From assembly GCA_030704425.1 (NCBI GenBank), contig JAPDHM010000001.1:248001-312000 (forward strand): 64,000 nucleotides of DNA. The letters run 5' to 3'. Source of the stretch: Rhodobacteraceae bacterium IMCC1909. Its GTDB lineage: Bacteria > Pseudomonadota > Alphaproteobacteria > Rhodobacterales > Rhodobacteraceae. The position numbers were made by a program, and so were the translations under genes. Positions 1 through 4,568 of this stretch are shown here, piece by piece (positions within the stretch are counted from its first letter, which is position 1; the number at the start of each line of letters is the position of its first letter). The notes under the pieces are model-generated. The model was not told the DNA's origin. It did not search any database and saw only the letters and a program-made list of their open reading frames with translations.

Positions 1-347
1 TCTTGGGTCAGGTTGGGAATGGCACGGTGCAAGGGCGATGTGCCAATGAATGTATGAATGCGGGGCTGGGCCGCATGGCGCACGGCTTCGGCACAGCGAT
101 CAATATCCTTGAAATTGGCACGGGCAAGGCCACAGATCATGGCGTTTTTGCTGCGTTTGGCAATCTCGCTGACGGCCTTGAAATCGCCTTCCGAGGCGAT
201 TGGAAATCCGGCTTCAATGATGTCCACGCCCATATCGTCAAGCATTTCGGCCAATTCAAGCTTTTCGGAATGGGTCATGGTTGCGCCGGGGCTTTGTTCA
301 CCGTCACGCAAAGTGGTGTCGAAAATATATACACGATCTTGGGTCAT
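1..347 (-). CDS. leuA: 2-isopropylmalate synthase, N-terminal part
   Basis: LeuA condenses acetyl-CoA with 2-oxoisovalerate, the first committed step of leucine synthesis. The minus-strand reading begins [20 protein letters not shown] and continues through the family's DTTLRDGEQ motif and the [10 protein letters not shown] segment. About 115 residues are visible and the rest lies beyond the window edge. The ATG at 347 is the first start upstream of the conserved motif. A leucine-rich leader peptide and mutually exclusive hairpins lie directly upstream on the same strand, so control by transcription attenuation is likely. The family assignment is very secure. Confidence 0.96.
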
Positions 348-379
348 AGGACTGTTCTTCTGCTAGGATTTTGGAAGGG

Positions 380-432
380 TTCGGCGCTGGGCCTAGGTGA
401 GCGTCCCGCGCCGAAAAGCACGCTCAGCCTAG
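380..432 (-). promoter_or_regulatory. leucine attenuator: alternative hairpins before leuA
   Basis: Read on the minus strand, TTCGGCGC (415-408) pairs perfectly with GCGCCGAA (387-380). A competing pairing joins CTAGGCTGAGCG (432-421), which overlaps the leader stop codon, with CGCTCACCTAG (403-393): 11 pairs with one bulged C. The second stem encloses one arm of the first, so they exclude each other. A ribosome stalled on the Leu codons leaves the upstream arm free (antiterminator); one that reaches the stop codon covers it (terminator-like stem). There is no clear U-tract after the 380-415 stem, so termination may be Rho-dependent, or the stem may act differently. Confidence 0.72.
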
Positions 433-474
433 ACTAAGTGTTAGAAGGAGAAGTTGCTCAGTCAAATGTTCCAT
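424..474 (-). CDS. leu operon leader peptide (LeuL-like)
   Basis: A 16-codon ORF upstream of leuA encodes MEHLTEQLLLLTLSLG. Seven of its 16 residues are leucine, with four consecutive Leu codons (CTT CTC CTT CTA). It ends about 75 bases before the leuA ATG, with hairpins in between. This is the expected design of a leader peptide in which ribosome stalling at Leu codons reports low charged tRNA-Leu. The sequence fact is direct; the function is inferred from position and codon content. Confidence 0.85.
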   Translation of the reverse strand: MEHLTEQLLLLTLSLG

Positions 475-605
475 GGGCCTAGGTATACCTGTGATTTTGC
501 AAATGGGAAGTGAAAAAATATGACAAAACCCGACGCGCGCAAGCGATTTGTGGCAAAAACCGGCGATTCGGTGGCCATGTGGATGATGCGCCCTACCTCG
601 GGGCT

Positions 606-1271
606 ATGAAACGGATTTTGATCATCGGTGCCTCTGGCGCTATTGGAACGGCCCTGGCAGAGACCTACCGCAGCCAGGGGTGGCAGTGCGCGGGCCTGTC
701 TCGCACGGAGCAGGGATTGGACTTAACGCAAGAGCGCAGTATCGCCCCCGCCTTAGCGACGCTCAAAGGCCCCTTTGAGACGATTGTCACGGCCACCGGA
801 GCATTAACGCTGGACGGGGTTGGGCCTGAAAAGACCATTAAGGCTGTGACGGCGCAAACTATGGCGGCACAGATGCAGATCAACGCCATTGGGCCAGCGC
901 TCATTCTGGGTCAGATTGGCCCTTTGCTGCCGCGTGATCGTCCAGCCAGGGTTGCGGTCCTCTCAGCGCGGGTGGGATCGATTGGCGACAACCGGCTGGG
1001 GGGCTGGATTTCCTATCGGGCGGCCAAGGCTGCCCTTAATCAAATTGTGCGCACTTCTGCGATTGAATTGGCCCGCAGTCATCCGCAGCTGTCCTGTTTT
1101 GCGCTGCATCCTGGCACCGTCGACACACCTTTAACACGGCCCTTTTCCGCAAAATATGACGCGCGGCCTGCGCCAGAGGCGGCCGCAAGATTATATGAGG
1201 TGATTGAAGCGCGCGGGCCGCATGAGACCGGACAATTTTTCGATCAAAACGGGCGTGTTGTTCCGTGGTGA
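606..1271 (+). CDS. short-chain dehydrogenase/reductase (SDR) family protein
   Basis: The protein is 221 residues from the ATG at 606, the start immediately before MKRILIIGASGAIG. The GASGAIG loop is the Rossmann NAD(P)-binding motif. NAIGPALILGQ matches the conserved Asn region, and SYRAAKAALNQ carries the YxxxK catalytic pair. Short SDRs of this type include C-factor/CsgA-like proteins; the substrate cannot be inferred. An in-frame extension back to 510 lacks family similarity and is unlikely to be translated. The gene diverges from leuA and converges with the MORN gene 13 bases downstream. Confidence 0.88.
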   Translation: MKRILIIGASGAIGTALAETYRSQGWQCAGLSRTEQGLDLTQERSIAPALATLKGPFETIVTATGALTLDGVGPEKTIKAVTAQTMAAQMQINAIGPALILGQIGPLLPRDRPARVAVLSARVGSIGDNRLGGWISYRAAKAALNQIVRTSAIELARSHPQLSCFALHPGTVDTPLTRPFSAKYDARPAPEAAARLYEVIEARGPHETGQFFDQNGRVVPW

Positions 1272-1284
1272 AGGGCCCTGGGCG

Positions 1285-2727
1285 TCATTCGGAGGGGCTC
1301 GCCGCTTCCTCGGGCGCAGGTGCCGCATCCTCGGCCGGTTGCAAAACCCCGTTTTCCCAAGTGCCGCTGGCAACCCCTCCCGTGTCATAGCGCATTGTGC
1401 CCTTGCCCTGACGGCGCCCGTCAACAAAGCTGCCTGTGTAGACATCCCCATTGGCATAGGTGGCGGTGCCCTTGCCGTGGATTTCGCCGTCGAGCCATTC
1501 GCCCGTGTAGCTAAAGCCGTCCTTCATTTTGATGTAGCCTTCACCAGAGCGCTGCCCTTCGACAAACCCGCCGACATATTTTGTACCGTCACGGTATCGC
1601 GCTTGCCCGGCGCCGTGGCGCTTTCCATCTTTCCAGTTACCTTCGTAGCGGTAACTGTCGGCAAAGGTCATAATGCCATAGCCGTGATTTTGTGCATTTT
1701 TAAAACTGCCTTCATAGACGAGGCCATTGGGGTAGGTCGCTTTTCCGGCCCCTTCAATGACTCCGGCTTTCCAATTGCCCTCATAGGTCGAGCCATCAGG
1801 ATAGGTAATCTTGCCCACACCCTCAGGCAGATCATCCAAAAAGGCGCCAAGGTAGATCGACCCATCCGGGTAGCGAACCTCGCCACGTCCTGAAATTTTG
1901 CCATTCTGCCAACTGCCAGAGTAACGATAGCCATCGGCGGCCAGAAAGGTGCCATTGCCATGGCGGCGGTCCTTGTGGAATTGGCCTTCGTAAAGATCGC
2001 CATTGGAATAGACGACCTTACCACGCCCCTCGCGCTTTCCATCTTGCAAAATACCAATAAAAACATCGCCATTTGCATGGGTGAGGGTACTCTCGCCGTT
2101 GATTTTGCCGTTTGTCCAATTGCCCTCATAGGTCACCCCATCGGGCATGGTCAAAATGCCAGCCCCAGAGCGCTCACCCGCCTCAATAGAGCCTTGGTAG
2201 ACCGCCCCATCCGAATAGATAATGGTGCCGTTGCCCTGTTTTTCGCCGTCAACCCAATTGCCCTCATAGCGATATCCGCTGTCAGAGGTGAGAATGCCCT
2301 GGCCGTGGTGTTTGGTGTCGCGAAACTCCCCTTCATAACGCAACCCGTTGGCATAAACCGCAACGCCTCGCCCGTCGATTTTGCCAGCCACCCAGCTGCC
2401 TTCATAGGTGCCACCATCGGCATAGGTTATGCGGCCGGTGCCGTGGGGCTTCCCGTTCGAAAACGCTCCCGTGTAGATCGATCCATCAGGAAAGGTTGCC
2501 TCACCCTGGCCAGAAATTTCACCGTTTTCCCAATTGCCGGTGTATGTATAGCCCGACGGTAGGCTGTAGGTGCCTTGCCCGTGTTGGCGACCGTTTTTGA
2601 ATGTGCCCTCATAATATCCACCGTCTTCATATTGTTTCGACTGGATCGTGGCGGTTTGCGCCTGGGCCAGGCTGCTCCATAGCAGGGCCGTTGTGACCAA
2701 TAGGAGATGTGAGATCTTCTTATTCAT
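1285..2727 (-). CDS. secreted MORN-repeat protein, 18 repeats
   Basis: The protein has 480 residues. An N-terminal signal peptide (MNKKISHLLLVTTALLWSSL, then AQAQ) predicts export. Almost all the rest is about 18 MORN repeats of 23 residues with the pattern YEGxWxxGxxxGxGxxxYxDG, plus a degenerate nineteenth and an acidic, Ala/Pro-rich tail. MORN arrays form elongated beta-hairpin scaffolds that bind membranes or proteins; the ligand here is unknown. The repeats show a second level of order: repeats 1-9 correspond one by one to repeats 10-18. It is a single gene, convergent with the SDR gene. Confidence 0.9.
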   Translation of the reverse strand: MNKKISHLLLVTTALLWSSLAQAQTATIQSKQYEDGGYYEGTFKNGRQHGQGTYSLPSGYTYTGNWENGEISGQGEATFPDGSIYTGAFSNGKPHGTGRITYADGGTYEGSWVAGKIDGRGVAVYANGLRYEGEFRDTKHHGQGILTSDSGYRYEGNWVDGEKQGNGTIIYSDGAVYQGSIEAGERSGAGILTMPDGVTYEGNWTNGKINGESTLTHANGDVFIGILQDGKREGRGKVVYSNGDLYEGQFHKDRRHGNGTFLAADGYRYSGSWQNGKISGRGEVRYPDGSIYLGAFLDDLPEGVGKITYPDGSTYEGNWKAGVIEGAGKATYPNGLVYEGSFKNAQNHGYGIMTFADSYRYEGNWKDGKRHGAGQARYRDGTKYVGGFVEGQRSGEGYIKMKDGFSYTGEWLDGEIHGKGTATYANGDVYTGSFVDGRRQGKGTMRYDTGGVASGTWENGVLQPAEDAAPAPEEAASPSE

Positions 2728-2906
2728 TGAAGTTTTAACCTCTTAGACAATGGCTCGGCGTCGGGGTGACTCTATTTTTATCCATCGCAGACTAGTAAAC
2801 CTCACCCGTGAGGGCAATGTCTTTCCACATTTCCCATTCAATTGGGCTTTTGCTTCGGCGGATGTCTGATAGATAAGGCGGGGGTTTGACAGGATTGAGC
2901 AAGCAG

Positions 2907-4568
2907 ATGACACAGAAATTTCGGTTAACCATGGCGCAGCTCAATGCAACTGTGGGTGATCTTGCTGGCAATGGGGCGCAAGCGCTTGAGGCTTGGACAG
3001 CGGCCAAAGTCGCGGGCGCTGATATGGTTATGTTGCCAGAGATGTTTGTCACCGGCTATCAGGTGCAAGATTTGGTGCTCAAACCTGCGTTCACCCGTGA
3101 TGCGATGGCGCAAATTCAGACCTTGGCCCAATCCTGTGCTGAGGGGCCAGCCATGGGGATTGGTGGGCCGTTTCGCGATGAGAGCGGTCTTTGTAATGCC
3201 TATTATGTTCTGGCCGGTGGGCAGATCCAAACTGTGATCAAAAAGCATATTTTGCCGAATGATGACGTGTTCGATGAAAAACGCCTCTATCAATCGGCGG
3301 ATATTTCAGGGCCTTACCTTGTGGGCAACCTGCGGATTGGCACGCCGATTTGCGAAGATGCGTGGCATGCAGATGTGCCGGAGGCTTTGGCCGAGTCTGG
3401 CGCGGAAGTGCTTTTTGTCCCCAATGGCTCGCCCTATGCGCGCGGCAAAATGGATGTGCGCATGGCGCATATGGTTGCGCGGGTGGTCGAAACGGGGCTG
3501 CCATTGGTCTATGTGAATATGGTTGGTGGCCAGGATGATCAGGTTTTTGATGGCGGATCATTCGTACTCAATCCCGGTGGTGCTTTGGCCCTGTCTTTGC
3601 CAATGTTTGAAAATTGCCTTGCGCATGTGGATTTTGAGCTGACCGATCAAGGCTGGCAGGCCGCGGCAGGCACCTTGGCCCATTGGCCGGATGCTTTTGA
3701 GCAAGACTACCATGCAATGGTGCTGTCCCTGCGCGATTATATGCGCAAAACAGGGTTTTCATCAGCGCTCTTGGGTCTCTCGGGTGGAATTGACTCGGCC
3801 ATTGTTGCCACGATTGCCGCTGATGCGTTGGGGCCGCAAAATGTGCATTGTGTTATGTTGCCCTCGGAGTTTACTAGCCAAGCGTCGCTTCAGCATGCCG
3901 CCTCTGTGGCGCAAGCGCTGGGCGCGCCTTTGCAAACCCTGCCCATCACCGGCCCACAAGCGGCGATCACCGACAGTTTGGCGCCGATTTTTGCCGGTCG
4001 GCCTGCGGATTTAACGGAGGAGAATATCCAATCTCGTCTGCGCGGCCTGTTGCTCATGTCCCTGTCCAATAAATTCGGCCATATGCTGCTGACCACAGGC
4101 AATAAATCGGAAGTTGCGGTCGGCTATGCGACGATCTACGGCGATATGGCAGGCGGATATAATCCGATTAAGGATTTGTACAAGACGCGGGTGTTTGACA
4201 TCTGCTGCTGGCGCAATGCGCATTATCGTGATTGGATGATGGGACCGGAGGGCGTGGTTATTGATCCGCGCATCATCGACAAAGCCCCCAGCGCCGAGCT
4301 GCGCGCGGATCAAAAGGACGAAGACAGCCTGCCGCCCTATCCGGTGCTTGATGGCATTTTGCAGATGTTGGTGGACGATGAGGCCTCTGTCGCCGATTGC
4401 ATAGCGGCCGGTTTTGAGCGTGAAACAGTCAAGAAAATTGAGCATTTGATCTATATTAGCGAGTACAAGCGTTTCCAATCTGCGCCAGGAACGCGCCTAT
4501 CGCCGCGGGCATTTTGGTTGGATCGACGCTATCCCATAGCCAACCGTTGGCGCGATCACAGCACATAG
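2907..4568 (+). CDS. nadE: glutamine-dependent NAD(+) synthetase
   Basis: NadE amidates deamido-NAD to NAD using glutamine and ATP. The N-terminal ~270 residues form a nitrilase-type glutaminase domain, with the catalytic Cys in GTPICEDAWH and the Glu in MVMLPEMFVTGY. The C-terminal half is the synthetase domain, with the PP-loop LGLSGGIDSAI and the TTGNKSEVAVGYATIYGD substrate segment. Length is about 553 residues, normal for two-domain bacterial NadE. The ATG at 2907 is preferred over an in-frame upstream start at 2886 because the domain begins at once after it. nadD, the preceding enzyme of the pathway, lies 4 kb away. Confidence 0.95.
   Translation: MTQKFRLTMAQLNATVGDLAGNGAQALEAWTAAKVAGADMVMLPEMFVTGYQVQDLVLKPAFTRDAMAQIQTLAQSCAEGPAMGIGGPFRDESGLCNAYYVLAGGQIQTVIKKHILPNDDVFDEKRLYQSADISGPYLVGNLRIGTPICEDAWHADVPEALAESGAEVLFVPNGSPYARGKMDVRMAHMVARVVETGLPLVYVNMVGGQDDQVFDGGSFVLNPGGALALSLPMFENCLAHVDFELTDQGWQAAAGTLAHWPDAFEQDYHAMVLSLRDYMRKTGFSSALLGLSGGIDSAIVATIAADALGPQNVHCVMLPSEFTSQASLQHAASVAQALGAPLQTLPITGPQAAITDSLAPIFAGRPADLTEENIQSRLRGLLLMSLSNKFGHMLLTTGNKSEVAVGYATIYGDMAGGYNPIKDLYKTRVFDICCWRNAHYRDWMMGPEGVVIDPRIIDKAPSAELRADQKDEDSLPPYPVLDGILQMLVDDEASVADCIAAGFERETVKKIEHLIYISEYKRFQSAPGTRLSPRAFWLDRRYPIANRWRDHST

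Follow-up and report, generated by a model that had tools for sequence, protein, structure and literature searches.

A predicted leucine leader RNA upstream of leuA in Alphaproteobacteria resembles the actinobacterial LEU element

Introduction

How might a short, leucine-rich reading frame ahead of leuA take part in controlling that gene in an alphaproteobacterium? The question is raised by the first few hundred positions of a 64,000-nucleotide stretch of DNA from Rhodobacteraceae bacterium IMCC1909 (contig JAPDHM010000001.1, positions 248,001 to 312,000; hereafter the window). Classical ribosome-mediated attenuators, such as E. coli leu and trp and the Rfam family Leu_leader, share with this locus a set of alternative stems and a leader peptide in which codons for the amino acid made by the pathway abound. 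Here we ask which parts of that likeness hold in the window and in its relatives.

Results

A leucine leader peptide with a promoter-like box at its start codon

The original prediction described a 16-codon ORF with seven Leu codons, four of them consecutive, before leuA, and rereading the minus strand gave the same frame, MEHLTEQLLLLTLSLG followed by its stop codon (Table 1). The gene beyond it starts at position 347 on the same strand, is of the leuA_bact type, and encodes a protein that in full length scores above three curated NCBI cut-offs for 2-isopropylmalate synthase. The reading of the ORF as a leucine leader peptide ahead of leuA is supported.

Table 1 Features of the leader region and of leuA, in window coordinates
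Feature	Coordinates	Strand	Remarks
Leader ORF MEHLTEQLLLLTLSLG	424..474	-	Stop TGA at 426..424; the preceding T makes TGA in 101/101 pattern loci
Four-Leu-codon run CTT CTC CTT CTA	442..453	-	Holds first c-arm piece CTTCT 447..443; Leu run also in relatives
leuA, 2-isopropylmalate synthase, first 115 codons	3..347	-	Gene continues beyond window; family assignment by curated cut-offs
Helix a 5' arm TGAGCG, includes leader stop	421..426	-	Class-wide covariation; extension CTAGG 432..428
Helix a 3' arm CGCTCA	398..403	-	Extension CCTAG 397..393
Helix b 5' arm TTCGGCGC	408..415	-	Window and relatives
Helix b 3' arm GCGCCGAA	380..387	-	GGTGC:GCACC in relatives
c arm, second piece CTAGG	428..432	-	Competes with helix-a extension
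c' arm, CCTAG 367..363 and AGAAG 361..357	357..367	-	Weak in window clade, strong in most relatives
-35-like TTCCCA (4/6)	504..509	-	By eye; 16 nt upstream of -10-like box
-10-like TATACC	482..487	-	7 nt upstream of leader ATG

Because the -10-like box lies so close to the leader ATG, the leader is probably translated from a leaderless or almost leaderless mRNA. Of 101 Rhodobacteraceae loci, 86 have a box of the form TA[TA]nn[TC] at a distance of 4-10 nt upstream of an in-frame leader ATG, compared with 540 of all 13,459 ATGs that these loci contain, a comparison that somewhat favours a match since every in-frame leader ATG was tried. A promoter scan of positions 300..700 at a threshold of 9/12 found no promoter.

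Two neighbouring frames were also noted. A divergent frame at 606-1271 on the plus strand adjoins the leuA promoter region and points away from it; it has MKRILIIGASGAIG close to its beginning and by eye resembles what we take to be a short-chain dehydrogenase. Beyond it, a 480-codon ORF at 1285-2727 on the minus strand is repeat-rich, its repeats being, again by eye, presumably of the MORN kind.

The element is present in every family locus fetched and recurs across the class

We sampled 110 leuA loci, 30 from the window genome and its relatives and 80 from named genome contigs, and found the pattern GAGCG...CGCTC upstream of leuA in 101; in the remaining nine (all within L002-L111) the element lay farther upstream and matched covariance model R1 at E 1e-8 or better. 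A further eight loci of the family all matched R1 and a second model, R2, ahead of leuA; six were remaining loci from the set around the window genome, and two came from genomes that R2 had missed in the phylum sample below. The element was thus found in 118 of 118 fetched Rhodobacteraceae leuA loci, 101 by pattern and 17 by covariance model, a set that includes at least four duplicate contigs (L014/L032, L015/L034 and L016/L045 are identical contigs). Across the 101 pattern loci, the leader frame before TGA carries a mean of 4.9 Leu among its last nine residues. Phaeobacter inhibens is among the species that carry the element. The window genome, whose genus includes members named Planktomarina, gives one R1 match. 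The original prediction had proposed a comparison of relatives as its check, with lack of conservation of the short ORF or of either stem in close relatives as the adverse outcome; ORF and stems were present in every close relative fetched, with changes that keep the pairs.

Across the class, leuA could be placed in 194 of the 385 genomes sampled. Of 115 upstream regions outside Rhodobacteraceae, 58 passed a scan that asked for a Leu run and a helix over the stop codon, compared with 1 of the 115 sequences when reverse-complemented and 4.5% when shuffled in blocks; ten of the scanned regions had been preselected for an R1 match, and 49 of 105 pass without these. Removing seven loci by eye (L135, L174, L176, L187, L220, L199 and L231) reduced the 58 to 51, which by our own tally represent 49 genomes and 31 other alphaproteobacterial families (L126/L138 and L128/L154 being the same places). 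R1 itself gave two false matches among 12 outside the family (L123 and L127).

R2 matched 72 of 398 genomes in a phylum sample, all 72 from the same class or family, in a sample whose share of genomes outside the class is not stated, so that absence elsewhere is not claimed; the best 30 of the 72 matches all precede leuA. Of 27 family genomes, only G572 and G729 gave no R2 match, and in both of these R1 matches weakly just upstream of leuA (E 0.003 and 0.001, respectively).

Helix a takes in the leader stop codon and covaries with it

In the window, TGAGCG pairs with CGCTCA to form helix a, which can be lengthened by CTAGG pairing with CCTAG, and the leader stop codon falls within it. Since the search pattern fixes the inner five helix-a pairs and two letters of the TGA in the 101 loci, their invariance there is no evidence of pairing. 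Loci found by model only do vary at the fixed positions (L026, L085, L116, L288 and L292), and one of these, L292, is a TAA version of the helix-a stop inside Rhodobacteraceae. The outer pairs exhibit modest covariation in 42 rows.

Across the class, an alignment of 56 rows (A3), 47 of which came from the scan and had been required to form 9 of 10 pairs, revealed two-sided changes at 7 of 9 pairs, amounting to 43 cells compared with 9.7 in shuffled alignments, with none of 500 shuffles as high. The 37 distinct arm pairs comprise 26 with TGA, of which 18 face TCA, 4 with TAA, of which 3 face TTA, and 7 with TAG, of which 5 face TTA. As judged from these alignments, helix a covaries, stop-codon swaps included. 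Separately, one locus (L272) has a leader match directly 5' of leuA in which the expected helix-a stop reads TGG.

These comparisons bear on whether the similarity reflects an RNA at all, or merely chance or the conservation of a promoter. Taken singly, the window sequence would suit the latter reading, as region 348..480 folds no better than its shuffles (-33.4 vs. -33.8 kcal/mol, z 0.10), and for this reason our case rests on comparison and not on folding energy. Compensatory changes beyond shuffled or swapped controls contradict an explanation without RNA-level function, as does the excess of scan hits over reverse complements, and we consider it scarcely credible.

Helix b is interleaved with helix a

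The original prediction placed two stems after the leader ORF, and both were found where it had put them, the second, helix b, pairing TTCGGCGC with GCGCCGAA. As the 3' arm (b') was located by pattern, helix b is tested only by coupling within its core and by the letters flanking it. MAFFT alignment misplaces b'. The middle pair of the core is C-G in 90, U-A in 8 and U-G in 3 of the 101 loci, and never C-A. The flanking letters, in 76 distinct arm sets, form C-G in 29, G-C in 8, U-A in 5, A-U in 3 and U-G in 5, and are unpaired in 26. This flanking pair is Watson-Crick in 51 of 96 loci (with the b' arms of L027 and L030 misplaced), whereas 10,000 permutations averaged 36.6 such pairs and never exceeded 49. 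A further helix of 4 bp could form on the inside in 95 of the 101 loci, a count that has no control set. Outside Rhodobacteraceae, the loop is mostly filled by a nested hairpin, and b:b' pairing is weak (z -2.2).

In the window and in Rhodobacteraceae, the arms follow one another in the order a, b, a', b' without overlap, so that the two helices are interleaved. The proposal that the two stems exclude one another therefore holds for them as nested hairpins and fails for the arms themselves, which do not overlap: helices a and b could form an H-type pseudoknot together. In three small-genome Alphaproteobacteria of 1.3-1.4 Mb (L144, L149 and L150), the loop sequence CTTTTGGC pairs with GCCAAAAA after helix a, an arrangement of the b type with a different sequence.

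A compact fold with a closing stem, together with a GTGC...GGCGCG stretch conserved within the Rhodobacteraceae leader, is also what would be expected if a protein or small molecule bound the folded leader, as in a riboswitch or a repressor-bound RNA, with the leader ORF being secondary; a bound protein was proposed for the actinobacterial counterpart (Seliverstov 2005, PMC1262725). The loop, however, differs between families and is not conserved, and both the Leu run and its reading frame are kept, which makes a bound ligand an improbable explanation in our estimation.

A third helix, weak in the window clade, would join the leucine codons to the start of the first gene

We additionally identified a helix absent from the original prediction, helix c. 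Its 5' strand takes in the Leu codons and its 3' strand the ribosome-binding region of the first gene, whether this is leuA or a cupin gene inserted ahead of it. In the window, helix c consists of two 5-bp pieces, CTTCT:AGAAG and CTAGG:CCTAG, with an energy of -8.6 kcal/mol by duplex and about -3.6 kcal/mol in the full leader; the AGAAG of c' belongs to AGAAGA, which weakly resembles a Shine-Dalgarno sequence and lies 8 nt upstream of the leuA start codon. Examples from relatives are TCCTTAGC:GCTAAGGA, CCTAAGCC:GGCTTAGG and CTACTAAGC:GCTTAGTAG.

Swapping partners among loci, a procedure that ignores their kinship, revealed that own partners pair more strongly than swapped ones both in Rhodobacteraceae (-14.5 vs. 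-11.7 kcal/mol, z -10.3, n=96) and in 49 loci of other families (-17.5 vs. -13.4 kcal/mol, z -10.2), with a z of -5.8 in 35 non-redundant Rhodobacteraceae loci and of only -2.9 in 17 loci of the window genus. The own c' ranks among the best 10% of partners in only 19 of 96 Rhodobacteraceae loci and 17 of 49 from other families, and above the median in 78 and 40, respectively. When a shorter leader strand was used, the c' of the window ranked behind 76 of the 96 partners, and the window clade remained weak with the full strand. In that clade, CCTAG or its complement occurs at 363-367, 393-397, 428-432 and 478-483, giving competing a and c pairings.

The distance from the end of c' to the leuA ATG is at most 12 nt in 56 of 101 loci, 13-25 nt in 39 and farther in 6. 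In eight loci (L026, L069, L077, L082, L085, L110, L112 and L116), a cupin gene of about 118 codons, identified as Cupin_2 in L112, lies between leader and leuA, apparently under the same leucine leader. In six of the eight (L026, L069, L077, L085, L112 and L116), c' directly precedes the cupin start, tying helix c to the translation start of whichever gene comes first; of the exceptions, L110 has weak c' pairing and L082 an ambiguous cupin start.

No U-tract terminator accompanies the stems

The lack of a U-tract after the terminator-like stem had been flagged from the outset, and a scan of 300..700 bears this out, finding no terminator-like site. Among relatives, at least five T in an 8-base window occurred within 20 nt after helix b in only 8 of 101 loci, and anywhere before leuA in 13 of 101. 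The label of a textbook ribosome-mediated attenuator, with its U-tract terminator, is rejected on these grounds. A known Rfam family was likewise rejected as the identity of the element, with no covariance-model match to Rfam 15 up to E 5 in window positions 1..3000 and none up to E 1 in 16 loci. The element thus differs from classical attenuators in having neither a terminator U-tract nor an Rfam match and in a helix that takes in the downstream ribosome-binding site.

Transcription could still be attenuated if helix b, or Rho loading after the leader stop, ended it before leuA unless a stalled ribosome allowed helix a to form; this would be the switch of the original prediction, with Rho or pausing taking over from the U-tract. 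A stop codon in helix a with helix b just beyond fits a sequence in which completion of the leader covers a and b then forms, helix b has covarying positions, and the absence of U-tracts does not speak against Rho. Yet the lack of a terminator-like site and the rarity of T-rich tails speak against termination, b:b' pairing is weak outside Rhodobacteraceae, and control of transcription leaves unexplained why helix c is kept with the ribosome-binding site of whichever gene is first. We regard this explanation as unlikely, though it carries more weight with us than a bound ligand.

The architecture resembles that described for the actinobacterial LEU element

As set out in Seliverstov 2005 (PMC1262725), the LEU element of actinobacterial leuA comprises a Leu-run ORF, a pseudoknot, a base stem of Leu codons with the Shine-Dalgarno sequence, and an alternative hairpin, with no obvious terminator; its authors favoured a bound protein and left the mechanism open in 2005. 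The element described here shares with it the Leu-run ORF before leuA, pseudoknot-capable helices, the want of an obvious terminator and, across the family but only weakly in the window, the Leu-codon:Shine-Dalgarno stem. For Streptomyces lividans, a leaderless LeuL1, MRFGLLLLSCRGEGL, is described without a typical terminator (PMC8079986).

We compared eight actinobacterial loci from plasmid-collection records, using a free helix search without control. Five of them, from Nonomuraea, Nocardia, Microbacterium and two Tsukamurella, have a Leu-run ORF, with a helix a of 11-16 bp and a helix b of 5-8 bp; no Leu-run ORF was found in L241, L242 and L248. The order c-a-b-a'-b'-c' is common to the Rhodobacteraceae element and these five, with helix c clear in three (L244, L247 and L251). 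The alphaproteobacterial R2 model recovered the Microbacterium locus (E 2e-4) and gave weak matches to those of Nonomuraea (E 0.031) and Nocardia (E 0.21), with the two Tsukamurella unmatched.

The two elements also differ, beginning with phylum. The window leuA is of the leuA_bact type, whereas the tested actinobacterial genes are by score of the leuA_yeast type, two exceeding the cut-off and one falling narrowly short of it. The leader stop codon is inside helix a here, but in the five actinobacterial loci its place is shortly after helix a or in the loop. Unlike the LEU element, most other alphaproteobacterial loci have a nested hairpin in the loop and weak b:b' pairing, and helix c is weak in the window clade. 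Genes of the leuA_yeast type on Sinorhizobium meliloti pSymB (L249, 559-610) and on a Sphingomonas parapaucimobilis plasmid (L250, 616-680) have upstream Leu-run ORFs and leader-like stems.

Two other alphaproteobacterial leaders invite comparison. In Sinorhizobium meliloti, the attenuator RNA rnTrpL (PMC10117765), which carries a leaderless trpL, likewise has a leader ORF that starts at or near the transcription start; rnTrpL is released and serves further functions. The uORFC-8-2 motif upstream of cysS in Rhodobacterales (PMC8632094) belongs to the same order and is likewise predicted from its uORF to act by ribosome-mediated attenuation, but with Cys codons and an intrinsic terminator with a U run. 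In searches of the open-access literature, we found no description of such a leader outside Actinobacteria.

Discussion

We favour, with moderate confidence, the reading that this is a LEU-element-type leader acting as a translational attenuator, since helix c joins the Leu codons to the ribosome-binding site of the first gene and so points to control of translation start. A nearly leaderless mRNA would be translated from the leader ATG. With leucyl-tRNA ample, the ribosome would pass the Leu codons, end at the stop inside helix a and depart, after which helix c would re-form over helices a and b and leuA translation would be low. With leucyl-tRNA short, the ribosome would stall on the Leu run and so occupy the 5' strand of helix c, leaving the leuA start free. 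The sequences themselves show the ORF, the three helices with their comparative support, the lack of a U-tract and a promoter-like box at the ATG, whereas stalling, the choice of which state is on, and the coexistence of a and b as a pseudoknot are what we infer.

Several observations count against translational attenuation. Helix c is weak in the window clade, with one piece competing with the helix-a extension, and in 45 of 101 loci c' stops over 12 nt short of the ATG. The own c' is seldom among the best tenth of partners, and the window sequence by itself does not fold better than its shuffles. According to PMC1262725, which on this point cites its reference 22, leader mutations in Streptomyces coelicolor behaved unlike the prediction of classical attenuation; together with the weakness of helix c in the window clade, these mutational results stand against the idea that stalling frees the leuA start.

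The LEU element is known from Actinobacteria, and what appears to be new is the same architecture in Alphaproteobacteria, with comparative support for three helices. A broader proposal, which we put forward tentatively and hold to be nearly an even matter, is that the two groups share one RNA device, which senses leucine with the very codons that form its anti-Shine-Dalgarno strand (CTC CTT, for instance, being the complement of AAGGAG), so that a ribosome starved on them directly uncovers the start of the first gene. If this is true, the device stands before both leuA types and an inserted cupin gene, and leucine control would be a single old or repeatedly transferred switch. On a practical level, the R2 model, leuA-specific in the 30 matches checked, could annotate a leader peptide and RNA that Rfam misses. 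The same architecture is widespread in Alphaproteobacteria, many of them genetically tractable, and with three comparatively supported helices the mechanism question of 2005 may come within reach of reporter constructs.
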